Below, piece by piece: positions 22,830 to 33,780 of a DNA stretch of 64,000 nucleotides. Source of the stretch: Cryobacterium psychrophilum (lineage in GTDB: Bacteria; Actinomycetota; Actinomycetes; Actinomycetales; Microbacteriaceae); the NCBI RefSeq assembly GCF_004365915.1, contig NZ_SODI01000001.1, positions 1,116,001-1,180,000 on the forward strand, given 5' to 3'. Positions within the stretch are counted from its first letter, which is position 1. Every line of letters begins with the position of its first letter. The position numbers and the translations under genes are program-made. A model generated the notes under the pieces. That model was not told the origin of the DNA. It saw only the letters and a program-made list of their open reading frames with translations, and did no database searches.

Positions 22830-22926
22830 CCGTCCCCCCCGCTTCTCCCGACACTGTCCGGCGTTGTGTGTCGAACGGATTACGTTTACGGGCTATTTCG
22901 CCCAATCAGACCGTTGTGCTTGCGCT

Positions 22927-22941
22927 GATTGTTCAACAATC
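22927..22941. promoter_or_regulatory. GntR-type operator before the transporter gene
   Basis: GATTGTTCAACAATC is a perfect 15-bp palindrome (7-bp arms around C22934), 65 bp upstream of the NRAMP-fold transporter start. The core ATTGTTCAACAAT recurs exactly at 30155-30167 before pxpA. The TTGT-N-ACAA layout suits FCD-type GntR regulators, and one is encoded at 25210-25890 between the two sites. Binding is inferred. Confidence 0.75.
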
Positions 22942-23006
22942 GTAGGCTTTCAGAAACCCAACGGCCTCCGGCGCTGGGGCCCGCCCCAACGAAGTGAGCG
23001 CAGCAC

Positions 23007-24236
23007 ATGGTCACCACGGTTCCTCCCGTCCAGGAAAAGCGACGCAAGCCCCGCAGCCAGCACCGCGGTGCGCTACTCGGCGCCATGTTCCTCATGGCAA
23101 CGAGCGCCGTCGGTCCCGGCTTCATCGTGCAGACCACGAACTTCACGGTTCAGCTCGGCGCCGCGTTCGCATTCGCCATCCTGGTATCGATCCTCGTCGA
23201 CATCGCCGTGCAGCTCAACGTGTGGCGGGTCATCGGAGTGAGCGGGAAGCGCGCACAGGAGCTGGCCAACACGGTCCTGCCCGGTGCCGGCTGGTTCCTC
23301 GCCGCACTCATCTGCCTCGGCGGGCTCGTCTTCAATGTTGGCAACATCGCCGGAGCCGGCCTCGGCCTCAACGTGCTGCTGGGCATCGACGCGCGTCTCG
23401 GCGGAATCCTCTCGGCCGTCGTCGCCATTGCCATCTTCCTCAGCAAGCGCGCCGGCCTCGCCCTCGACAAGATCGTCGTCGTGCTCGGCGCCGTGATGAT
23501 CATCCTGGTTGCCTACGTGGCCATCGTGTCGCAGCCGCCACTGGGTGAAGCGATCAAGAATGCGGTCATTCCCGAGAACATCGACTTTCTCATCATCACC
23601 ACCCTGATCGGTGGCACGATCGGCGGGTACATCACCTACGCCGGTGCACACCGCATGATCGACACGGGTATTTCCGGCAAGGAAAACGTTCGCGAAATCA
23701 CGCGCAGCTCCATTCTCGGCATCATCATCACCGGTGTCATCCGCGTTCTGCTCTTCCTCGCCATCCTCGGCGTGGTCGCCGGCGGCGTGGCGCTCACGAG
23801 CGATAACCTCGCGGCCGAAGCCTTCCAGTCCGCAGCGGGCGACCTCGGCTTCCGGCTGTTTGGAGTCATCCTCTGGGCAGCGTCGATCACCTCGGTGATC
23901 GGTGCCGCATATACGTCGATCTCCTTTGTCACCACCTCGAAGACCTCGCCGCGCGTGCGCAGTCTCGCGACGTGCGCATTCATCGCCGTCTCGACCGTCA
24001 TCTACTCCTTCATCGGCCAGGCACCGGCAACGCTGCTCATCATGGCTGGCGCAGTCAACGGTCTGATCCTGCCCGTGGGCTTCGCCGTCATCCTCTGGGT
24101 GGCGTGGCGCCGGCGCGATCTGCTCGGCGGGTACGTGTATCCCAAGGGGCTCCTGATCATCGGCGTGCTCGCCTGGCTGCTCACGCTCTTCCTCGGCTAC
24201 CAGTCCCTCGGTGGCCTCGCAAAGCTCTGGGTCTAG
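23007..24236 (+). CDS. NRAMP-fold transporter of the 5-oxoproline locus (YcsG-like)
   Basis: Membrane protein of 409 aa with about 11 segments, related to the NRAMP family and positioned like YcsG beside pxpA/kipI/kipA in Bacillus subtilis. The opening VGPGFIVQTTNFTVQL aligns with NRAMP helix 1 (GPGF conserved), but the metal-binding DPGN is absent. The helix-6 metal motif MPH appears as GAH in YAGAHRMIDTG. It therefore probably does not move divalent metals. Uptake of 5-oxoproline or a related amide is the better guess from context. It is followed after 5 bp by a DUF1445 gene, and a palindromic operator lies 65 bp upstream. Confidence 0.85.
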   Translation: MVTTVPPVQEKRRKPRSQHRGALLGAMFLMATSAVGPGFIVQTTNFTVQLGAAFAFAILVSILVDIAVQLNVWRVIGVSGKRAQELANTVLPGAGWFLAALICLGGLVFNVGNIAGAGLGLNVLLGIDARLGGILSAVVAIAIFLSKRAGLALDKIVVVLGAVMIILVAYVAIVSQPPLGEAIKNAVIPENIDFLIITTLIGGTIGGYITYAGAHRMIDTGISGKENVREITRSSILGIIITGVIRVLLFLAILGVVAGGVALTSDNLAAEAFQSAAGDLGFRLFGVILWAASITSVIGAAYTSISFVTTSKTSPRVRSLATCAFIAVSTVIYSFIGQAPATLLIMAGAVNGLILPVGFAVILWVAWRRRDLLGGYVYPKGLLIIGVLAWLLTLFLGYQSLGGLAKLWV

Positions 24237-24241
24237 CACCA

Positions 24242-25090
24242 ATGACGATGCGTGCGGACGGTTCGGCGGGGCCGGCCGACATGAGGCTGCCCGGGATCCC
24301 GAGTGCTCCCGAGCGGGCGGCGCTCACGCCCGCCGAGGCGCGAGCGCTGTTCCGGGACGGCCTGGCCACACCGACCGCGGGCTGGTCCAGCGGGTTCACG
24401 CAGGCCAACCTCATCATCGTGCCGCGCGAGCAGGCCTTCGACGTGCTGCTCTTTGCCCAGCGGAATCCGAAGTCCTGCCCCATCCTCGGCGTGATCGAGG
24501 CCGGTGCGACGAGCGGTCCCCTGCTCGCGGACGGCGATATCCGCACCGATGTGGGTCGCTACATGGTGTACGAGAACGGTGTTCTCGTGGCGGAGCCGAC
24601 GGACCTTCACGACTGGTGGCGCCCCGATCTCGTGACCTTCATCGTGGGCTGCAGCTTCACCTTTGAGGCGGCTCTCCAGCACGAGGGCATCCCCATCGCG
24701 CACATCGAGGAGGGCAGCAACGTGCCCATGTACCGCACCAATGTGCGTTGCGCGCCGGCCGGAGAAATGTCCGGCCCGCTCGTCGTCTCCATGCGGCCGA
24801 TCGCCGCTGATCGGATAGCCGATGCCGTGCGGATCACCGCGCAGTACCCCGCGGTTCATGGCGACCCCGTGCACGTGGGTGACCCGGCCGCGCTGGGCAT
24901 CCGTGACCTGGCGCGCCCAGACTTCGGCGACGCCGTGACGGTGCCGGCTGGGCACGTGCCCGTCTTCTGGGCGTGCGGGGTCACCCCGCAGGCGGCCGTC
25001 ATGGAATCGCGTCCGCCGCTGGCGATCGGCCACGCCCCCGGTCACATGCTCATCACGGACGCGCGCGACTCTGACTACCTCGTTCCTTAG
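24242..25090 (+). CDS. DUF1445 putative hydro-lyase (YcsI-like)
   Basis: A 282-aa cytosolic protein of the DUF1445/YcsI family, which includes D-glutamate cyclase, an enzyme interconverting D-glutamate and 5-oxo-D-proline. Conserved blocks are seen: ANLIIVPREQAFDVLLF, the acidic DLVTFIVGCSFTFEAAL, and VPVFWACGVTPQAAV near the C-terminus. It starts 6 nt after the transporter stop and is in the same operon. A second possible start is ATG 24248. Its presence beside PxpABC-type genes supports a role in handling 5-oxoproline or a related lactam. Confidence 0.88.
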   Translation: MTMRADGSAGPADMRLPGIPSAPERAALTPAEARALFRDGLATPTAGWSSGFTQANLIIVPREQAFDVLLFAQRNPKSCPILGVIEAGATSGPLLADGDIRTDVGRYMVYENGVLVAEPTDLHDWWRPDLVTFIVGCSFTFEAALQHEGIPIAHIEEGSNVPMYRTNVRCAPAGEMSGPLVVSMRPIAADRIADAVRITAQYPAVHGDPVHVGDPAALGIRDLARPDFGDAVTVPAGHVPVFWACGVTPQAAVMESRPPLAIGHAPGHMLITDARDSDYLVP

Positions 25091-25209
25091 CCCGCCGGCG
25101 GCCCGCGGAACGGCTCTGGTGGCGCCCTGTGCATACTCCTGACGGCGACGTTGCCAGCCTAGAGTAGGCGACCACAGTGGCGGCCACAGTGCCGGTCACA
25201 GCGGCGCTG

Positions 25210-25890
25210 TCAGCCGTGGGCGCGAGCAGCAAGGAGCTGCTCTTCGGCGCGGTGCAGATAGCTGACCATCAGTGCCGCAGACTCGGCCCGGTCGCCGGCC
25301 TCAAAGCGCTCGAGAATGCGGGCATTCTCTTCGATATACGGCGCGTGGAAACCCGGATCGGCGACCATGGAGTGGAACACGAGTCGCATCTCCGCGAGCA
25401 CCTGTGCCATCTGTCCGTTGAGGCGCTCGCTGCGGGCGAGGGCGACGACACCGGCGTGGAATTCCTGGTTGGCGCCGGCCATCCCCGGCACGGAGCCCTT
25501 GGCGCGTGCGACGCGAGCACGAGCGATGGCCGAGTGGAGGGCATCCGTTCTCTCATCGGTGCACCACATGAGCGCGGCCGGCTCGAGAAAACGGCGCACC
25601 CGATAGATCTCGCGAACGTCATCGACCGAGGGCAGCGTGACGAAAACGCCACGGTTGGGAATGCGGGTGACCACATGTTCGCCGGCGAGTGTGGCGAACG
25701 CCTCGCGCAAGGTGTTGCGGGAAACACCCAGCACGTCGCACAGGACGTGCTCGGAAAGCTTCGCGCCCGGCGCCAACTGCCCGGCGGAGATCCGCTCGCG
25801 CAGCACCGACGCCGCCCATATTCCCGTTTCGGCATGTCGATCATCGGCGGTCGCCCGACGCAGGTCGGGGAGGATCTCGTCGAGGGTCAT
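25210..25890 (-). CDS. GntR-family (FCD) regulator of the 5-oxoproline locus
   Basis: Transcription factor of 226 aa. The N-terminal winged helix includes VLRERISAGQLAPGAKLSE and LGVSRNTLREAFATLAGEH, the standard GntR recognition helix. The C-terminal helical FCD domain has the metal-site pattern DVREIYRVRRFLEPAAL and NQEFHAGVVALA. ATG 25890 is the correct start; longer upstream frame is not GntR-like. It is the last gene of the pxpA, pxpBC, carboxylase operon, 17 bp after the carboxylase. Identical palindromes in front of both arms of the locus are its probable operators. Confidence 0.92.
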   Translation of the reverse strand: MTLDEILPDLRRATADDRHAETGIWAASVLRERISAGQLAPGAKLSEHVLCDVLGVSRNTLREAFATLAGEHVVTRIPNRGVFVTLPSVDDVREIYRVRRFLEPAALMWCTDERTDALHSAIARARVARAKGSVPGMAGANQEFHAGVVALARSERLNGQMAQVLAEMRLVFHSMVADPGFHAPYIEENARILERFEAGDRAESAALMVSYLHRAEEQLLAARAHG

Positions 25891-25907
25891 AGCCCCACAG
25901 TATCTAC

Positions 25908-27638
25908 TCAGGCCTCGATGGCGGCGACCACGACGTTGACGGCAACGGAATCGCCGGCCACGACGTGCAGGACGGACAACGTGCCGGAGCGGTGGGCGAG
26001 CACCGTTGATTCCATTTTCATGGCCTCCAGGATGAGCAGCGGTTCGCCCTCGGCCACGGTCGCGCCCTCGTCGGCCAGCCATTTCACTACGGTTCCGGCC
26101 ATCGTCGAGCGCAGCTCGGCCGGACTGGCCTCTTCGGCCACGGGTGCGGCCGCTGCGGTGCCGCCGCCGGCGAGCCCGGCGAGCAGGGTCTCCGGCAGCC
26201 CGAGGGCCAGCCGCTTACCGTCGACCTCGATCGTGATGGTGCGCCGGGCAGCCGACGGGGTGGCCGGCGTGAGGTCGGGGTCGATGGCGAGCTGTGCGGC
26301 GAACTCGGTTTCAATCCAACTCGTGTGCACCCCCAGCCGGTCGAGGCCCGTGAACGCCGGCGTGGCGACGACGGCACGGTGGAAGGGCAGAACGGTCGGC
26401 AGTCCCGTGATCTCGAATTCGGCGAGCGCCCGTCGTGCACGCCGCAGCGCCTGCTGGCGGTCGGCGCCGGTCACGATCAGTTTCCCGAGCAGCGAGTCGA
26501 ACTGTGCCGGCACCGTTCCACCGGCACGCACGCCGGCATCAACGCGAACACCCGGTCCTGTCGGCACGACGAAGGTCGCCACGGTTCCGGGGGCGGGCAG
26601 GAAACCACGGCCCGGGTCTTCGGCGTTGATCCGAAATTCGAACGCATGCCCGCGCGGCAGCGGGTCTTCCAGCACCGGAAGCGGGCCGCCCGCCGCGATC
26701 TGCAGCTGTGCGAGCACCAGGTCGACGCCGGACGTCTCCTCCGTGATGGGGTGTTCCACCTGCAACCGGGTGTTCACCTCGAGGAAGGAGATCGTGCCGT
26801 CGTCGGCAAGCAGGTATTCCACCGTGCCAGCGCCGACATAGTTGGCCTCGAGGCAGATGGCCTTCGCCGATGTGTAAATCTGGTCACGCTGGGCGGGGGT
26901 CAGGAAGGGGGCTGGTGCCTCCTCGACGAGCTTCTGGTTGCGGCGCTGCAGCGAGCAGTCCCGGGTACCGACGACGACGACGGTGCCGCGCCCGTCGGCG
27001 AGGATCTGCGCCTCCACGTGCCGTGGCTTGTGCAGGAACCGTTCCACGTAGCATTCGCCACGACCGAAGGCGGCGACGCTTTCGCGCACGGCCGCGTCGA
27101 AGGCCTCCTCAATCGCATCCATTTCCCAGACGACCTTCATGCCACGGCCACCGCCGCCGAACGCCGCCTTGATGGCCAGGGGCAGTCCGTGCTCCTCGGC
27201 GAAGGTGCGCACCTCCGCCGCAGTCTTGAGGTGACCCTCCGAGCCGGCCACGAGGGGGGCACCCACGCGCACCGCAATTTCGCGTGCCGACACCTTGTTG
27301 CCGAGAATCCGGATACTCTCGGGGCTCGGCCCAATCCAGATCAGCCCGGCATCGACGACCGCCTGCGCGAACTCGGCATTTTCGGAGAGAAAACCGTAGC
27401 CGGGGTGAAGCGCGTCAGCCCCGGCACGCGCGGCGATCGCGAGGAGCTTCTCCACATTGAGGTAGCTGTCGGCGGGGCTGTCGCCGCCCAGGGCGTATGC
27501 CGCCGTGGCGAGGCCCACGTGCAGAGCGTCGGCGTCGACGTCGGCGTAGACGGCCACGGACGACAGGCCAGCGTCATCGCAGGCCCGGATGATGCGCACG
27601 GCGATCTCGCCGCGGTTGGCAATCAGTACTTTCTGCAC
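25908..27638 (-). CDS. Biotin carboxylase fused to biotin carboxyl carrier domain
   Basis: A 576-aa fusion that carboxylates biotin with ATP and bicarbonate. Residues 1-445 form biotin carboxylase: [18 protein letters not shown] at the start, the ATP-grasp glycine loop [11 protein letters not shown], and [17 protein letters not shown] with metal ligands. A Thr/Pro/Ala linker is followed by a biotinyl domain ending with the biotinylated lysine in LEAMKMES. No carboxyltransferase of the acetyl-CoA type is nearby. Instead the partner three bp upstream is a PxpB-PxpC fusion, related to the carboxyltransferase domain of urea carboxylase. This suggests an amide- or lactam-carboxylating complex. Confidence 0.93.
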
Positions 27639-27641
27639 GAT

Positions 27642-29339
27642 TCAGCTCTCGTTCGGGGTGGTGGTAGCGGATGCGATGGTGCCGGACGCCGTATCGGCGG
27701 CTGGGGTGATTCTCGTGGCGGGTGGCACCGGGGAGTCGGCGCCGGCCGGAGATGAAGAGGACGAGGTGACGGGCAGGGAAACAGGCACGAAGCGGATCTG
27801 GGCTCCGGTTCCGAGCTGGGCGGCGAGGTCAAGATCGGCGTGCAGCACGACACCGAGCACGGGGTAACCTCCGGTCACCGGGTGATCAGCAAGAAACAGC
27901 ACCGGTAGTCCCGAAGCCGGAAGCTGAATCGCCCCGGACACGGTTCCCTCGCTGGGCAGCTCCCCCGCACGTGACCGGGTGAGGGACAGCCCGTCGAGTC
28001 GCAGGCCAATGCGGTTGGACTGCGCCGTGACCGTGTAGGTACCCGCGGTGAAGGCGGCGAGCGTCTCCGAACTGAACCAATCGTCGCGCGGGCCGAGGAC
28101 GAAGCGCAGATCGGTCACCTCGGCGGGCGGCTGCGGTGTCGGCTCGGGAGCCCCAACCACGCTCGTGGGCGGCGCGAGCGCAACGCTCAGCTCGGTGCCG
28201 GCGCGCAGCGGAACGGGTCCGAGTCCCGACATGGAGTCGGTGGACCTGCTGCCGAGCACTTCGGGCACGTCGAAGCCGCCGCGCACCGCGACGTAGCTGC
28301 GCACGCCCCACTCCGGCGTGCCCAGTGTCATCCGTTCTCCGGCGTGCAGGGCGAAGGGGGCGTCGGTCGGCACCCGGCGCGCGAGGTGTGTACCGCCGGT
28401 GACCTCGACCGACACGCTCGCCCCGGTGACCGCGAGCACCTGGTCGCTCCGCGCCTCGAGCACGAGTCCTCCGAGGGCATTTTCCAGGACGGCGGCCGTG
28501 GCCGGGTTTCCGGCGAGTCTGTTGGAGCGCCGCACGGCGCCACGGTCGAGCGCGCCCGCGCCGGCGACACCGAGGTTGGCCAGGCCAGGGCGTCCGAGGT
28601 CCTGCACGGTGGTCTGCAACCCCGGCTGCACCACGACGAGACCGGCGGTTCCTGCGGCCGAGTCGGAGGACGTGCCGCTCAGCGTCGGTGTCGACACTGC
28701 GGTGTCGGCAGCGACGACGTCACGAACGGCGCGAAACTGCACCCGGTTTCCCGGCTGCACAAGCGCCGGCTGCTCACGGTCGAGGCTCCACATCTCGGCA
28801 TCCGTGCGTCCGATGAGCTGCCAACCACCCGGCGAGACACGCGGATACACCGCCGAGTACGCGTCGGCGAGGGCGACAGACCCCGCGGGAACCGCGTGCC
28901 GCGGCGTGCGTCGCCGAGGCACGAGCAGTCGGTCATCACCGACGAGGTACGCGAACCCCGGGGCGAAGCCGCCGAACGCGGCGGTCCAGTGTTGCGAGGT
29001 GTGGGCAGCAATCACGCCGTCCCGGCCGAGTCCGGTGAGCTCGGCGACCTCGTCGAGGTCTTCACCGTCGTAGACGACGTCGATCGTGACGAGCATGTCG
29101 TCACCGGTCGTGGGGCGGCTCGCGTCGATGGCCCGCAGCAGGGCAGGCCACCGGCGCGCCGCGGCGGCCGAATTCGCCGTCACGAGCACAGTCTCGGCCG
29201 CCGCCACCACGTCTACCTGACCCTCAAGCGGATGCTCCACCAGGGCCTCATACATGCTCAATACTTCGCCGAGCGTGGCGAACTGCACAAGAAAAGCGCG
29301 GTCGCCGACGGGACGGACGGATCGACTCGGTGACAACAT
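27642..29339 (-). CDS. pxpBC: Fused 5-oxoprolinase subunits B and C (KipI-KipA)
   Basis: A single 565-aa protein combining PxpB (KipI, about residues 1-215) and PxpC (KipA, about 240-540). The first half contains TAAFGGFAPGFAYLVG and VSPGGWQLIGRT, and the second VVQPGLQTTVQDLGRPG and GLSLTRSRAGELPSEG. In most bacteria these are two proteins; together with PxpA they cleave 5-oxoproline to glutamate with ATP. The same two modules also form the carboxyltransferase of urea carboxylase. It starts 3 bp after pxpA and ends 3 bp before the biotin carboxylase, so all are made from one message. A low-complexity Ala/Ser/Thr tail ends the protein. Confidence 0.93.
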   Translation of the reverse strand: MLSPSRSVRPVGDRAFLVQFATLGEVLSMYEALVEHPLEGQVDVVAAAETVLVTANSAAAARRWPALLRAIDASRPTTGDDMLVTIDVVYDGEDLDEVAELTGLGRDGVIAAHTSQHWTAAFGGFAPGFAYLVGDDRLLVPRRRTPRHAVPAGSVALADAYSAVYPRVSPGGWQLIGRTDAEMWSLDREQPALVQPGNRVQFRAVRDVVAADTAVSTPTLSGTSSDSAAGTAGLVVVQPGLQTTVQDLGRPGLANLGVAGAGALDRGAVRRSNRLAGNPATAAVLENALGGLVLEARSDQVLAVTGASVSVEVTGGTHLARRVPTDAPFALHAGERMTLGTPEWGVRSYVAVRGGFDVPEVLGSRSTDSMSGLGPVPLRAGTELSVALAPPTSVVGAPEPTPQPPAEVTDLRFVLGPRDDWFSSETLAAFTAGTYTVTAQSNRIGLRLDGLSLTRSRAGELPSEGTVSGAIQLPASGLPVLFLADHPVTGGYPVLGVVLHADLDLAAQLGTGAQIRFVPVSLPVTSSSSSPAGADSPVPPATRITPAADTASGTIASATTTPNES

Positions 29340-29342
29340 CCG

Positions 29343-30101
29343 CTACACGAAGCTTTCGATGGTGATGCCGGAGCCAACGATGGCGGAACGCACAGCTGCG
29401 GCGAGAACCACGGAATCGGGGGTATCACCGTGCAAGCAGATACTTTCGACCTCCATGTCGATGAGGGTGCCGTCGATGGCCAACACCTGGTGGTCACCCG
29501 CCAGTCGCAATACCTGCTCGGTGACGGCGGCAACGGAGTGCAGCACGGCGCCGGGGAGCCTGCGCGACACGAGCGTGCCGTCGGGGTTGTAGGCGCGATC
29601 GGCGAAGCCCTCGGCCACGGTGCGCAGGCCAGCGGCGCGCGCGGCGCGCTCGATCTCCGAGTTCGGCAACACCATCACCGGCAGGGACGGGTCCACGGCG
29701 AGCACGGCCTCGACCACGGCGAGAGCCTGCTCGGGGTGGTGCACAATGGCGTTGTAGAGGGCGCCGTGCGGCTTCACATACCGCACCTCGGTACCGGCGG
29801 CCCTGGCGAGGGCCTGCATGGCACCGACCTGGTAGACCACATCGTTGCTGAGGTCGACGGCATTCATTTCGATGAAGCGCCGACCAAAACCGGACAGGTC
29901 CCGGTAGCCCGGGTGGGCGCCCACCGTGACGCGGGCGGTGGCCGCCGCCGCGCACGTGGCACGGATGGTGCTCGGGTCGCCGGCGTGGAATCCGCAGGCC
30001 ACGTTAATACTCGACACCGACGCGATAATCGCGGCGTCGTCGCCAAAGGTCCAGATGCCGAAGGATTCCCCGACGTCGCTGTTCAGGTCAATGCTGGGCA
30101 T
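29343..30101 (-). CDS. pxpA: 5-oxoprolinase subunit A (LamB/YcsF family)
   Basis: A 252-aa cytosolic protein of the LamB/YcsF family. The signature opening [12 protein letters not shown] and the metal-site blocks [21 protein letters not shown] and VKPHGALYN are all present, as is LHGDTP near the C-terminus. In PxpABC it provides the hydrolase part acting on 5-oxoproline. It is the first gene of the operon. The palindrome ATTGTTCAACAAT lies 54 bp upstream of the ATG, after the end of the thiolase gene. The true substrate could be another cyclic amide given the biotin carboxylase encoded in the same operon. Confidence 0.94.
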
Positions 30102-30154
30102 CAGTGTCCCGTCTCAAGAAAAATTGTTCTCTCTAGACTGCCTTACTTATGCAC

Positions 30155-30167
30155 ATTGTTCAACAAT
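30155..30167. promoter_or_regulatory. GntR-type operator before pxpA
   Basis: ATTGTTCAACAAT, a perfect 13-bp palindrome, identical to the core of the site at 22927-22941 more than 7 kb away. A half-site ATTGTTC follows at 30123-30129. Placed 54 bp before pxpA, it is the likely control point for the leftward operon by the GntR protein encoded at its end. Confidence 0.75.
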
Positions 30168-30193
30168 CTGCCTAAAACTGGGAATAACCGTGG

Positions 30194-31387
30194 CTACACC
30201 GCCTCCAGAACACTCACGTAGTTGGCCACTCCCACGCCGCCCATATTCTGCACGGCAGCACGGCGGGCACGGGGCAGCTGCATCTCGCCCGCGGTTCCGG
30301 TGAGCTGCATCGCAGAGATCACGTGCTGCGACACCCCGGTCGCCCCCACCGGATGCCCCTTGGCCTTGAGCCCGCCGGACACGTTGATCGGGAGCCTGCC
30401 GCCGATATAGGCCCAGCCCTCATCAATCGCCCGTCGCCCGTCGCCGCGCCCGGTCAGGCCGATCACCTCATACATGATCAGTTCGGCAATCGTGAAGCAG
30501 TCGTGGACCTCGACGAAGTCCAGGTCGTCGAGCCCCACCCCGGCCATCGTCATCGCTCGCTCGAACGAGACCCGCGTCGAGGCGAACTCGGTCGGGTCCC
30601 GGCGCCCGGCGGGCAAGAAATCGTTGGCCTGCCCGAAACCGGCCAGGCGCACCGGGCCGGTCGCCGCTGCGCCCGAGCAGTACGGCTCGGTCGTGAGAAC
30701 CAGCGCGGCAGCGCCGTCGGAGACGGGAGAGCAGTCGGTGCGGCGCAGAGGCTCGGCGACCATCGGATTGCGATCAGATACGGTTTGGCAGAAGTCCTCG
30801 CCGAGGTCCTTGCGCAACTGCGCGTAGGGGTTCTCCACGCCGTTGCGGTGATTCTTCGCGGCAATCGAGCCGAGCACGTCACCGATGGCCCCATAGCGCG
30901 CCTCATAGGCCGCAGCCACCGTGGCGAACAGCCCGGTGAACCCGGTCGTCGACGGCATTCCGGCCATGTCGTAATCTGCGCCGAGCAGCGCCGACCCGAC
31001 CAGTTCGGCCGGGGCGTGCGTCATCTTCTCAGCGCCGATCACGAGCACGGTGCGCGCGGTACCGGCGAGGATCGACTTCACGCCCTGTTGCACGGCAGCC
31101 GAACCCGACGCGCAGGCGTTCTCGACGCGGGTCGCGGGCACGTGTCGCAGACCGGCATCCGTCTGCAGGGCCAACGACGAGGGAAAAGCAAGCGGGGTCA
31201 GGCCCGAGTTGAACTGGCCCACGAAGATCTCGTCGACCTGGCTCGCGTCAATGCCGGCGTGGGCGAGGGCCTCCGTTGCCACCTGAACGATGAGGGTCTC
31301 GAGGGTCTCGTCGACAAGCTTGCCGAAACGGCTGTGCCCCCAACCAGTGAGGAGCACGTCGCGGCCGAACCGCTCCTTCAGGCTCAT
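30194..31387 (-). CDS. Thiolase-family acyltransferase (SCP-x type)
   Basis: A 397-aa thiolase-fold enzyme. The nucleophile is Cys92 in [10 protein letters not shown], and the active-site His is in KGHPVGATG. The second cysteine motif of classical thiolases near the C-terminus is replaced by NMGGVG, as is normal in the SCP-x/lipid-transfer type. Its ATG overlaps the stop of the CoA-transferase B gene by 4 nt. Together with the CoA transferase it would activate and cleave a 3-oxoacid (3-oxoacid to 3-oxoacyl-CoA to acetyl-CoA plus shortened acyl-CoA). A ketoadipate-type or steroid side-chain-type substrate is possible; none is proven. Confidence 0.9.
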
Positions 31388-32040
31388 ACGAGTACGTCCG
31401 AGAGTTCGGGAGCCACAACGAAATCGGCCTCGGTCTTCTCCCGAATCTCGGCCACGGTCACGCCGGGCGCGAGGCGCCGCAGCAGCAGGCCATCCGGCGT
31501 CACGTCGAAGACCGCGAGATCCGAGATGATGCGGTCAACCACGGCGAGGCCGGTGAGGGGAAGGGTGCATGTGTGCACGATCTTGGCCGAGCCATCCCTG
31601 GCCACGTGCTCGGTGAGTACGACCACGCGCGGGGTACCGGCCACGAGGTCCATGGCGCCGCCCATGCCCTTGACCATCTTGCCCGGGATGGTCCAGTTGG
31701 CGAGGTCGCCGTTACCGGCCACCTGCATGGCACCAAGAATGGCGACCTTCACATGCCCGCCGCGGATCATGCCGAAGGAGGCGGCGGAGTCGAAGATCGA
31801 GCCGCCGGGCAGCACGGTGACCGTCTGCTTGCCGGCGTTGATCAGGTCGGCGTCTTCCTCGCCCTCGTAGGGGAACGGCCCCATGCCCAGCAGGCCGTTC
31901 TCGCTCTGCAAGGTCACGGAGATTCCCGCGGGCAGGTTGTTGGCCACGAGCGTCGGAATTCCGATGCCGAGGTTCACGTAGTCGCCGTCGACCAGCTCTT
32001 CGGCCGCGATCGCGGCCATTTCGTCGCGTGTCCAGGTCAT
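31384..32040 (-). CDS. 3-oxoacid CoA-transferase subunit B
   Basis: A 218-aa beta subunit of a class I CoA transferase (ScoB/AtoA/PcaJ group). The catalytic glutamate is Glu47 in QSENGLLG, and GIGIPTLV and GGAMDLVAG are typical. It follows subunit A by 25 bp, has GGAGAAG before its ATG, and overlaps the thiolase start by 4 nt. It transfers CoA from succinyl-CoA to a 3-oxoacid in the usual reaction. Which acid is used cannot be decided from the sequence. Confidence 0.93.
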
Positions 32041-32065
32041 TATCTTCTCCTTGGGTCTCTAGAAA

Positions 32066-32779
32066 TCAGGCTGCGACGGCGTCGCGGGGGCGCACCGTGC
32101 GTTGTTCGATGTCTTTGGCACGGTTCAGCGAGTGCACGATCCGCTGGATGTAGACCCCGGGAGTCACCACGTGGTCTGGCTCGATCTCCCCCGGCTGCAC
32201 GATGTGCTCCGCCTCCGCAATCGTCACGAGACCCGCCGTGGCCACGACGGGGTTGAAGTTTCGTGCGGTGTAGCGGTAGACGAGGTTGCCGCGCGTGTCG
32301 GCCATGTACGCCTTCACGAGGGCGACATCCGCCACGATCCCGCGCTCCTGCACATAGGTGACGCCGTCGAACTCGGCGAGAGGCTTGCCCTCGGCAATGA
32401 GCGTGCCCACGCCCGTCTTCGTGTAAAACGCGGGGATTCCCGCGCCGCCGGCCCGCAACCGTTCGGCGAGGGTGCCCTGGGGGCTGAACTCCACGTCGAG
32501 CGCTCCGGCCAGGAACTGCTCGGCGAAGAGCTTGTTCTCTCCCACGTACGAGGCAATCACCTTGCGCACCTGCCCCGTCTCGAGCAGCACACCCAGACCC
32601 TTGCCGTCGACGCCCATGTTGTTGGAGACCACGGTGAGGTTCGTGACACCGGATGCGCGCACCGCGTCGATGAGATCGGCCGGAATGCCGCTGAGACCGA
32701 AGCCTCCCACGGCGAGCGTCATGTCGTCCCTGAGCACGTCGCCGAGAGCTTCTGCCGCACTTGTCTGCACCTTGGTCAC
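32066..32779 (-). CDS. 3-oxoacid CoA-transferase subunit A
   Basis: A 237-aa alpha subunit of the same CoA transferase. The Gly-rich CoA-binding stretch AVGGFGLSGIPADLI is close to the N-terminus, and YRYTARNFNPVVATAG is the family's C-terminal block. The start chosen is GTG 32779, because GAGGAG lies 6-7 nt before it. An upstream ATG at 32800 lacks that site. It is the first gene of scoA-scoB-thiolase and is divergent from an IclR regulator, with two palindromic sites in the intervening 203 bp. Confidence 0.93.
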   Translation of the reverse strand: MTKVQTSAAEALGDVLRDDMTLAVGGFGLSGIPADLIDAVRASGVTNLTVVSNNMGVDGKGLGVLLETGQVRKVIASYVGENKLFAEQFLAGALDVEFSPQGTLAERLRAGGAGIPAFYTKTGVGTLIAEGKPLAEFDGVTYVQERGIVADVALVKAYMADTRGNLVYRYTARNFNPVVATAGLVTIAEAEHIVQPGEIEPDHVVTPGVYIQRIVHSLNRAKDIEQRTVRPRDAVAA

Positions 32780-32815
32780 TGGATCTCCTCGTTGAGTCAA
32801 CTACCGATCGGCTGT

Positions 32816-32832
32816 CGTCCACTTTGTGGACG
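32816..32832. promoter_or_regulatory. IclR-type operator near the CoA-transferase start
   Basis: CGTCCACTTTGTGGACG: perfect 7-bp arms around TTT, 37 bp upstream of the GTG of subunit A. It shares the layout GTCCA-5 nt-TGGAC with the second site at 32935-32951. The position would let a bound regulator block the leftward promoter. Confidence 0.7.
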
Positions 32833-32934
32833 GATCGGACACTACCCAGCCAACCGTGATCACGGGCCTCCTGTCAACGGATGCGGCCCGTCAATCCCCT
32901 GAGGTATCCATGCCGTGACCACGCGAAGAGTTCT

Positions 32935-32951
32935 TGTCCATATAATGGACA
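32935..32951. promoter_or_regulatory. IclR-type operator near the regulator start
   Basis: TGTCCATATAATGGACA: perfect 7-bp arms around ATA, 31 bp upstream of the IclR ATG. It has the same 17-bp architecture and GTCCA/TGGAC core as the site at 32816-32832, 119 bp away. It probably overlaps the regulator's own promoter (TATAAT lies inside it), which suggests autoregulation. Confidence 0.72.
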
Positions 32952-32982
32952 TGAAGCAACCTCTGAGGAGAAACGGGCACCA

Positions 32983-33780
32983 ATGCCAGGCCACAGCACC
33001 AGCCGCACTCCCGCCCCGGTGCAGGGTGCTCAGGTCGTGAGCCGGGTCGCCCTGCTGCTGCGAATCGTCGGGCAGGCCCCCCGCGGCCTGCCGCTCGCCC
33101 AGATTGTGCGCGAGAGCGGACTCACCAGGCCCACCGTGCATCGGTTGCTCAGTTCGTTGCTCGGCGAGGGCCTTGTGGACCACGACCCGGTCGCCGGCAC
33201 CTGGCGGTTCGGGCCGGAGATCTTTGTGATGGGCACCGTGGCTGCACAGTCCTATCCGATCGAGGATCTCGCCCGCCCGAGCCTGCACCGGCTCGCCGAG
33301 GAGACCGGGGAGAGCGCGTTTCTTTCCATCCGTCGCGGCGCCGAAACCGTCTGCCTGCTGCGCGAGGAGGGCAGTTTCCCCATTCGCTCATTCGTTCTCC
33401 ATGAGGGCGTGCGTTTTCCACTCGGCGTCGCATCCGCCGGCCTCGCCATCCTCGCCTACCTGTCGACCGACGAAGTGGACCGGCTCCTCGTGCAGGACGA
33501 GGCCTTCCGGGAACACTGGGGAGAGCAGCACTCCCCCGCAGCCATACGGCAACACCTGGAGCAGACGCGGGCCACGGGCTATGCGGTGAACCCCGAGCTG
33601 ATTCTCGAAGGAAGCTGGGGAATGGGGGCGGCCGTCTTCGACCAGGCCGGACGGCCCACGTGGGCGCTCTCGCTCACCGGCATCGAACCGCGTTTTCGGG
33701 CCGGCCGGCAACCTTATCTCGGCCAGCTATTGCTCGATGAGGCGCACAAGATCACCCAGAAACTGCAGCACGCACGCTAG
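32983..33780 (+). CDS. IclR-family regulator of the CoA-transferase operon
   Basis: Transcription factor of 265 aa. The winged helix spans VVSRVALLLRIVGQAPRG to LTRPTVHRLLSSLLGEGLVD. The effector domain includes EETGESAFLSIRRGAETVCL and LGVASAGLAILAYL. The ATG at 32983 follows GAGGAG by about 14 nt. An upstream in-frame start is less protein-like. It is divergent from the CoA transferase/thiolase operon, the usual arrangement for IclR-controlled catabolic genes such as the pca systems. The ligand is probably the oxoacid substrate or a precursor. Confidence 0.92.
   Translation: MPGHSTSRTPAPVQGAQVVSRVALLLRIVGQAPRGLPLAQIVRESGLTRPTVHRLLSSLLGEGLVDHDPVAGTWRFGPEIFVMGTVAAQSYPIEDLARPSLHRLAEETGESAFLSIRRGAETVCLLREEGSFPIRSFVLHEGVRFPLGVASAGLAILAYLSTDEVDRLLVQDEAFREHWGEQHSPAAIRQHLEQTRATGYAVNPELILEGSWGMGAAVFDQAGRPTWALSLTGIEPRFRAGRQPYLGQLLLDEAHKITQKLQHAR

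Follow-up and report, generated by a model that had tools for sequence, protein, structure and literature searches.

The closest experimentally described counterpart of the locus considered here is the 5-oxoproline switch of Corynebacterium glutamicum, in which the GntR-type regulator PxpR represses pxpTABC through agATTGTTCAACAATct (PMC13274462, 2026), a site that, according to the same paper, had earlier been predicted in RegPrecise. In that organism, mutation or removal of the motif raised reporter output 6.5-fold, deletion of pxpR improved growth on 5-oxoproline, and the pxpTABC promoter, whose operator centre lies 65 bp before the pxpT start codon, was induced by 5-oxoproline; PxpR bound this compound with a dissociation constant (KD) of 726 nM, and no binding of proline, glutamate, glutamine or aspartate was observed under the conditions tested (PMC13274462). 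Among the papers listed by a text search of the literature for the palindrome, whole or shortened, this was by title the sole one on 5-oxoproline. The present analysis concerns a 64,000-nucleotide stretch of the Cryobacterium psychrophilum genome (the window), in which two identical 13-bp palindromes, ATTGTTCAACAAT, occur at 22928-22940 and 30155-30167. Very probably both palindromes serve as operators for a PxpR-type repressor responsive to 5-oxoproline, namely the GntR/FCD protein whose gene lies at 25210-25890. The regulator gene adjoins genes for an NRAMP-like carrier and for PxpABC, and the operator core is exact upstream of both arms of the cluster; given an identical core together with a GntR regulator and pxp genes as in C. 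glutamicum, the window can be read as a PxpR-type regulon with a layout of its own.

The first predicted operator extends to a perfect 15-bp palindrome, GATTGTTCAACAATC (22927-22941, arms GATTGTT/AACAATC), while the second (30155-30167) keeps full symmetry for no more than 13 bp, its arms being 86% complementary over 14 nt; the outer AG..CT of the C. glutamicum 17-mer is incomplete at both. Scanning the window for ATTGTTCAACAAT with up to two mismatches returned just these two places (four matches, each place being read on both strands), compared with a mean of 0.20 and a maximum of 2 matches in 100 dinucleotide shuffles. The scan and the symmetry check thus bear out the sequence-only reading made earlier, which had described two identical palindromes, the first extended to 15 bp, and had placed one upstream of the NRAMP-fold transporter gene and the other upstream of pxpA. 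When both contigs of the genome, 3,677,616 bases in all, were searched with an S at the centre of the pattern, the only exact sites were the two in the window and the next nearest sequences differ at two positions, so that copies elsewhere without linked genes, the outcome that would have spoken against a regulon, were not found (0 further at 0-1 mismatch). With up to two mismatches, 12 places were recovered genome-wide against 2 with a reversed control pattern, and a simple base-composition estimate predicts 0.005 exact copies of ATTGTTSAACAAT per genome where 2 are observed.

The association between palindrome and regulator was examined in a panel of 60 related genomes, that of C. psychrophilum included (genomes and loci are denoted below by G and L numbers), with thresholds of E ≤1e-30 for a regulator homologue and E ≤1e-20 for a pxpA homologue. 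The regulator is present in 26 of the 60, and 24 of these 26 hold an exact palindrome (S centre), the other two (G041 and G050) having one-mismatch sites that adjoin the regulator gene. None of the 34 genomes lacking a regulator match contains the exact palindrome, be it the 17 with a pxpA homologue or the 17 with neither gene. Fisher tests, in which kinship between genomes is ignored, give 9e-15 overall and 4e-10 among the 43 pxpA genomes. The palindrome thus tracks the regulator and not merely pxpA. One-mismatch copies in six regulator-less genomes (G014, G027, G038, G046, G051, G056) were treated as background; G051 also holds the variant ATTGATCAACAAT, probably as a dispersed repeat, in six copies spread over five contigs.

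Thirty stretches were fetched from these genomes, 25 with the regulator and five around stray one-mismatch copies. All 25 regulator stretches have a site with 0-1 mismatch within or adjoining the pxp cluster, and the five stray stretches (14-16 kb; G014, G035, G041, G034, G003) contain no pxp gene, no regulator and no match to any of six window proteins. Close relatives mostly share the layout of the window. In six genomes from distant lineages of the genus, whose regulators are 39-43% identical to that of the window, gntR points away from an nramp-pxpA-pxpBC-accBC series and a single exact site separates the two, which indicates that the palindrome survives rearrangement; the site is likewise kept in Nocardioides, Kushneria, Paracoccus and Variovorax, where gntR and the pxp genes are again divergent. 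The divergent arrangement known from C. glutamicum pxpR/pxpT is a layout trait, absent from the window and present in these six congeners, and not a property of the regulator protein.

A wider sample was obtained by scanning a species-level genome collection, from which 80 named loci were listed (the true total is at least 80); one of the two search patterns was a recognition-helix peptide. In the window regulator, the recognition helix corresponds to LGVSRNTLREAF at residue 54. Four of these loci duplicate fetched genomes, as confirmed by sequence (L128=G010, L129=G031, L130=G013, L131=G035). With any base allowed at the centre, 51 of the 80 loci have an exact site, 72 a site with at most one mismatch and 5 a site with exactly two mismatches, in hosts that include Arthrobacter, Kocuria, Nocardioides and Corynebacterium as well as the Pseudomonadota Kushneria, Paracoccus, Variovorax and Pseudorhodoferax. 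Related regulators also occur in four Nonomuraea loci (L177, L185, L192, L206) with the variant site ATCGTTGAACAAT directly before gntR; the stretches examined contain no pxp gene, and in L177 an MFS gene is divergent; these are possibly sister regulators with another target.

In the genus of the described system, the 17-mer of C. glutamicum was found with at most one mismatch in 27 of 121 drawn Corynebacterium genomes, against a single match with the reversed control. Neighbourhoods were viewed in 3-kb loci, 12 of 20 of which show pxpA or an NRAMP-like gene, and in 18 longer stretches; altogether the site adjoins pxp or NRAMP-like genes in 20 of the 27 genomes. In five (G066, G093, G103, G158 and G179, corresponding to L238, L224, L219, L228 and L222), two of which are also among the 20, a site lies between proB and proA; these two genes match NCBIfam equivalog models in G093, and in the other four genomes they are assigned by 86-100% identity. 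All five encode a PxpR-like regulator and pxpA, with a second site (0-1 mismatch) just before pxpA. The product of ProB is gamma-glutamyl phosphate. This intermediate cyclises to 5-oxoproline (PMC13274462), and the position of the site suggests that 5-oxoproline so formed may regulate proA, and that in some corynebacteria the final part of proline synthesis from glutamate (ProA) may be coupled to 5-oxoproline leaking from that pathway. Neither proA nor proB is mentioned in the main text of PMC13274462, and a third site of the proB-proA kind was not found in the whole-genome scan of C. psychrophilum.

The placement of both operators relative to conserved promoter elements suggests how repression would be exerted. 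Promoter assignments are based on conservation in a chosen subset of upstream regions, from which deeper lineages, duplicates and L083/L084/L086 (with an extra gene between site and pxpA) were omitted. Seventeen aligned transporter upstream regions mostly share TTGcg, a spacer that holds the palindrome, and then TAGgct; in the window these correspond to a putative -35 TTGCGC (22920-22925, plus strand; TTG in at least 85% of the regions) and a putative -10 TAGGCT (22943-22948, plus strand; largely conserved), separated by a 17-bp spacer that operator 1 fills. Exceptions are L085, with TAAGCT for TAGGCT, and L090, L091 and L092, with a spacer 1 bp longer. The 16 aligned pxpA upstream regions have in common the palindrome (with one mismatch in L085) and a block GCA..CT.g starting 13 bp later, within which AGTCTA (30134-30139, minus strand) is a putative -10 of uncertain assignment; TTGAAC (30158-30163, minus strand), inside operator 2, could be the -35, an assignment less sure than that of the transporter promoter. 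A half-site, ATTGTT, was also noted at 30123-30128, 26 nt from operator 2; by eye it is not conserved in most relatives. From operator centre to start codon the distance is about 73 bp for the transporter gene and about 60 bp for pxpA. A protein bound in a conserved -35/-10 spacer would block RNA polymerase, which makes repression the natural reading.

By analogy with PxpR, from which we infer both ligand and repression in C. psychrophilum, a regulator dimer would occupy both sites when 5-oxoproline is lacking: at 22927-22941 it would fill the -35/-10 spacer of the promoter serving the transporter and cyclase-family genes, and at 30155-30167 it would cover what is presumed to be the -35 region for pxpA-pxpBC-accBC-gntR. 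A rise in 5-oxoproline (pyroglutamate), through external uptake or formation from glutamate or glutamine, would lead to its binding to the regulator and to release of the latter from DNA, whereupon the carrier, the cyclase-family protein and 5-oxoprolinase would be made, the last returning glutamate. With gntR as the last gene of a regulated operon, derepression would also raise the repressor, and a simple negative feedback is proposed. The earlier suggestion that the regulator controls both arms finds support in the conserved sites of both upstream regions; its further suggestion, that the regulator controls its own gene, is likely from the operon position of gntR, and stands against the opinion on C. 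glutamicum given below.

Several observations weigh against this reading of the palindromes, or against parts of it. The invariance of SRNT in the named loci arises partly by selection, because the helix peptide was a search pattern. No site was found within the stretch in 3 of the 80 listed loci (L158, L163, L180), two of which are short contigs, and pxpA was found there in 64 and not in the remaining 16. The regulators beside the sites in five drawn divergent-layout Corynebacterium loci are 27-37% identical to the window regulator (that of C. mastitidis is 48% identical, and Cg1143, the C. glutamicum protein, lies outside the comparison). Among the 27 Corynebacterium genomes, four (G076, G078, G079, G140) have the 17-mer with neither pxp genes nor proBA in view; the one-mismatch copies of G076 and G140 can be taken as background, because these genomes have no regulator and no pxpA, while the exact palindromes G078:C1:1248373 and G079:C1:43257 (L223/L251 and L231/L254) lie away from pxp and proBA and are unexplained, regulator and pxpA being present elsewhere in both genomes. 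G079 holds ten palindrome copies within one mismatch. A consensus promoter scan found no promoter at either operator, and the authors of the C. glutamicum study hold autoregulation by PxpR unlikely in that organism (PMC13274462).

In the window, the genes under the two operators form two convergent units. On the plus strand, the NRAMP-fold transporter gene (23007-24236, 409 amino acids; Pfam Nramp, 90.7 bits) is followed after 5 bp by a gene for a D-glutamate cyclase family protein (24242-25090, 282 amino acids; Pfam PF07286, 225.5 bits; NCBIfam PRK05463, 398.6 bits, cut-off 324), a family that we take to be the former DUF1445. On the minus strand, pxpA, for 5-oxoprolinase subunit A (29343-30101, 252 amino acids; Pfam LamB_YcsF, 324.6 bits; NCBIfam PRK05406.1-3, 351 bits, cut-off 226), pxpBC, for fused subunits B and C (27642-29339, 565 amino acids; Pfam CT_C_D and CT_A_B; TIGR00724, 242.7, cut-off 230.2), accBC, for a biotin carboxylase with a C-terminal biotin carrier domain (25908-27638, 576 amino acids; identified by Pfam, with the biotin-attachment motif AMKM in the translation), and the PxpR-like gntR (25210-25890, 226 amino acids; Pfam scores of 59.4 bits for GntR and 59.2 bits for FCD, each exceeding its cut-off) are separated by 3, 3 and 17 bp and are a tight operon with gntR as its last gene. 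The sequence-only reading had set the GntR/FCD gene between two transcription units; the position is right, but the gene does not stand apart, since it follows accBC by 17 bp and ends the pxpA operon. Its wider claim, that one pathway joins all these products, is well supported for the carrier and PxpABC plausible for the cyclase-family protein and no more than possible for the biotin carboxylase. Upstream of operator 2 (30168-33780) lie genes for a thiolase and two CoA-transferase subunits (minus strand) and for an IclR-type regulator; operator 2 is just 26 bp from the thiolase stop codon, so that read-through from thiolase into pxpA is possible.

The carriers under the operator vary. The metal-site residues of MntH comprise DPGN in helix 1 and MPH in helix 6. 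In an alignment with Escherichia coli MntH, at an identity (22%) that leaves room for a local shift, the NRAMP-like protein has GPGF in place of DPGN and GGY in place of MPH, and the changes D to G, N to F and M to G relative to MntH recur in 5/5 window-type proteins aligned. Metal transport as the main role of the NRAMP-like carrier was rejected on these missing residues, within the reach of a 22%-identity alignment. A sequence search against solved structures at thresholds of 0.001 and 0.1 gave no match. The protein is a probable PxpT-like 5-oxoproline carrier by its residues and genomic setting: a site (0-1 mismatch) lies at most 260 bp before the NRAMP-like gene in 31/31 listed loci and 22/22 fetched relatives having the gene (three loci are in both sets).

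Where the NRAMP-like gene is absent, a DUF969-DUF979-DUF2891 set may stand under the operator instead (L131:2130-4911, L093:6491-9304, L133:6664-9485), and a site precedes DUF969 (in DUF969-DUF979, usually with DUF2891) in 11/11 listed loci and 2/2 relatives, one being in both sets. In the 60-genome panel, DUF979 is complete in G035 and G059, which give no NRAMP-like match at E ≤1e-40, and G009 and G031 have the NRAMP-like gene next to a mere remnant of DUF979, a family not found in the window genome. MFS proteins also occur under the site, again in loci that lack the NRAMP-like gene, as do the tripartite receptors TctC in Variovorax and DctP in Acidovorax, the latter locus (L207) having no pxp gene within the stretch; none of the carriers searched for was found in 10 of the 80 listed loci. 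In a Variovorax locus, a pyroglutamyl peptidase gene (L181:7111-7773), whose product is a direct source of 5-oxoproline, lies behind the same operator with TctC. In Campylobacter jejuni, a mutant without cj0552-4 (DUF969/DUF979/DUF2891) no longer grew on 5-oxoproline when this was tried in a preliminary test (PMC12795558), so that the operator-based grouping of carriers agrees with independent data. A constant operator with changing neighbours is in this respect a practical guide to function, and groups the NRAMP-like protein, DUF969/DUF979/DUF2891 and certain MFS proteins and tripartite receptors as likely 5-oxoproline carriers.

Another feature of the cluster is the partnership of fused PxpBC with AccBC. 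Among 105 loci compared (93 with a pxpBC match, 7 partial, 86 classified), 75 of the 77 with fused PxpBC also have accBC, as against 1 of the 9 in which pxpB and pxpC are split, the single split case (L149) resembling a frame-broken fused gene; with four doubly counted genomes removed, the fused figure is 71 of 73. The Fisher value for this link, 7e-9, is overstated because the rows are related. AMKM occurs in 77 of 81 accBC hits, the other four being cut or without a visible motif, and the window protein, judged by sequence, combines a biotin carboxylase domain with an AMKM-bearing carrier domain, as expected of a biotin-dependent carboxylase. Against the NCBIfam equivalogs the window protein scores 111.9 in its PxpB part (cut-off 145.55) and 197 in its PxpC part (cut-off 500), while 3/3 split PxpC and 2/3 split PxpB relatives also fall below; the cut-offs therefore fail as a discriminator between fused and split forms. 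A tree of PxpBC, in which only two rows lack accBC after length filtering, is uninformative on accBC gain or loss.

These patterns hint that fused PxpBC and AccBC constitute a biotin-dependent form of 5-oxoprolinase. Urea carboxylase and the LamA-LamB system for lactam use in Aspergillus likewise combine a biotin carboxylase with PxpB/PxpC-like domains, and LamB has given the PxpA family its name; the window differs from both in using two proteins, AccBC and PxpBC. A literature search on LamA/LamB gave no paper on lactam genes among the matches listed. Speaking against the biotin-dependent form, two loci with fused PxpBC (L142, L180) have no accBC in view, for C. glutamicum the described operon comprises pxpTABC and no more, and the term 'biotin carboxylase' is absent from the text of that paper (PMC13274462). 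A joint reading, tentative and rather doubtful as a whole, is that 5-oxoprolinases of two chemically distinct types stand under the PxpR operator, one the classic PxpABC, whose PxpB and PxpC are separate, the other a biotin form; that in the latter, to which the window would belong, a dedicated AccBC hands a carboxyl group to fused PxpBC, as in urea carboxylase, before PxpA opens the ring; that unrelated carriers (NRAMP-like, DUF969/DUF979, MFS, tripartite) are swapped under one operator; and that some corynebacteria also tie in proB-proA. Why fused PxpBC is nearly always accompanied by a biotin carboxylase is in any case a testable puzzle.

The same partnership lends itself to a different interpretation, namely that the sites do belong to the GntR/FCD regulator, and the signal and pathway are those of another lactam or amino acid, for example of the 5-oxo-D-proline or 2-pyrrolidinone type; AccBC and fused PxpBC would then make up a lactam carboxylase/hydrolase that depends on biotin. 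The near-constant company of AccBC, the D-glutamate-cyclase family gene within the transporter operon and the scores of PxpBC below the equivalog cut-offs for PxpB and PxpC would all fit such a pathway, but the PxpC cut-off carries no information, as the split relatives show, and the same operator core takes part in the response to 5-oxoproline in C. glutamicum (PMC13274462). Moreover, genes tied to 5-oxoproline recur behind the site: the alternative carrier DUF969/DUF979, whose loss together with DUF2891 ended 5-oxoproline use in the preliminary C. jejuni test (PMC12795558), the pyroglutamyl peptidase gene of Variovorax, and the proB-proA copy of the five Corynebacterium genomes, given the cyclisation of gamma-glutamyl phosphate (PMC13274462). 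A pathway for another lactam or amino acid is accordingly unlikely.

Binding of the palindromes by a different factor, such as a global regulator or the IclR-type protein encoded at 32881-33780, is far less probable still: the IclR-type gene does lie 2.7 kb from operator 2, but the palindrome stays with the GntR gene when the locus is rearranged and even in another phylum, and its exact form is missing from 17/17 genomes that have a pxpA homologue and lack a GntR match. That the palindromes are a functionless chance repeat has a negligible probability, in view of the excess of exact copies in the genome over expectation and of the dozens of genomes that retain the site next to their pxp genes. 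Operators of a PxpR-type, 5-oxoproline-responsive repressor are thus the reading retained for the comparison with known systems.

The operon of Bacillus subtilis, for which we assume the gene order pxpA/ycsG/ycsI/pxpBC/kipR and take YcsI to be a DUF1445 (cyclase-family) protein, resembles the window in combining PxpABC with an NRAMP-family protein, YcsG (PMC10448178). YcsG has been reported as an Mn2+ importer (MntG), whereas the window carrier is without the MntH metal-site residues, which argues against a simple metal role; the regulators named for B. subtilis are KipR, TnrA, CcpA, AhrC and MntR, a GntR protein not being among those named in the part of the source represented here (PMC10448178). 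No paper on D-glutamate cyclase together with oxoproline or DUF1445 turned up in a literature search. The C. jejuni proteins DUF969/DUF979/DUF2891 belong to families unrelated to the window carrier, and the same families are found under the same operator in a Cryobacterium and in several Arthrobacter and relatives without an NRAMP-like gene in view.

With C. glutamicum PxpR-pxpTABC the window shares a GntR-type regulator, an identical 13-bp core, an NRAMP-family carrier with pxpABC, and a distance of some 60-75 bp from operator to start codon. It differs in having two operators for two convergent units; in a gntR that ends the pxpA operon, where that of C. glutamicum is divergent from the carrier gene; in the addition of a cyclase-family gene and accBC and the fusion of pxpB with pxpC; and in a site placed in the promoter spacer, where that of C. 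glutamicum lies downstream of the proposed -10. The switch is thus of a known kind, described in 2026 in C. glutamicum, of which the window is a clear new example and not a new type of system, and the experimentally described 5-oxoproline switch, its 13-bp code unchanged, is extended to Cryobacterium and Arthrobacter as well as to several Pseudomonadota.

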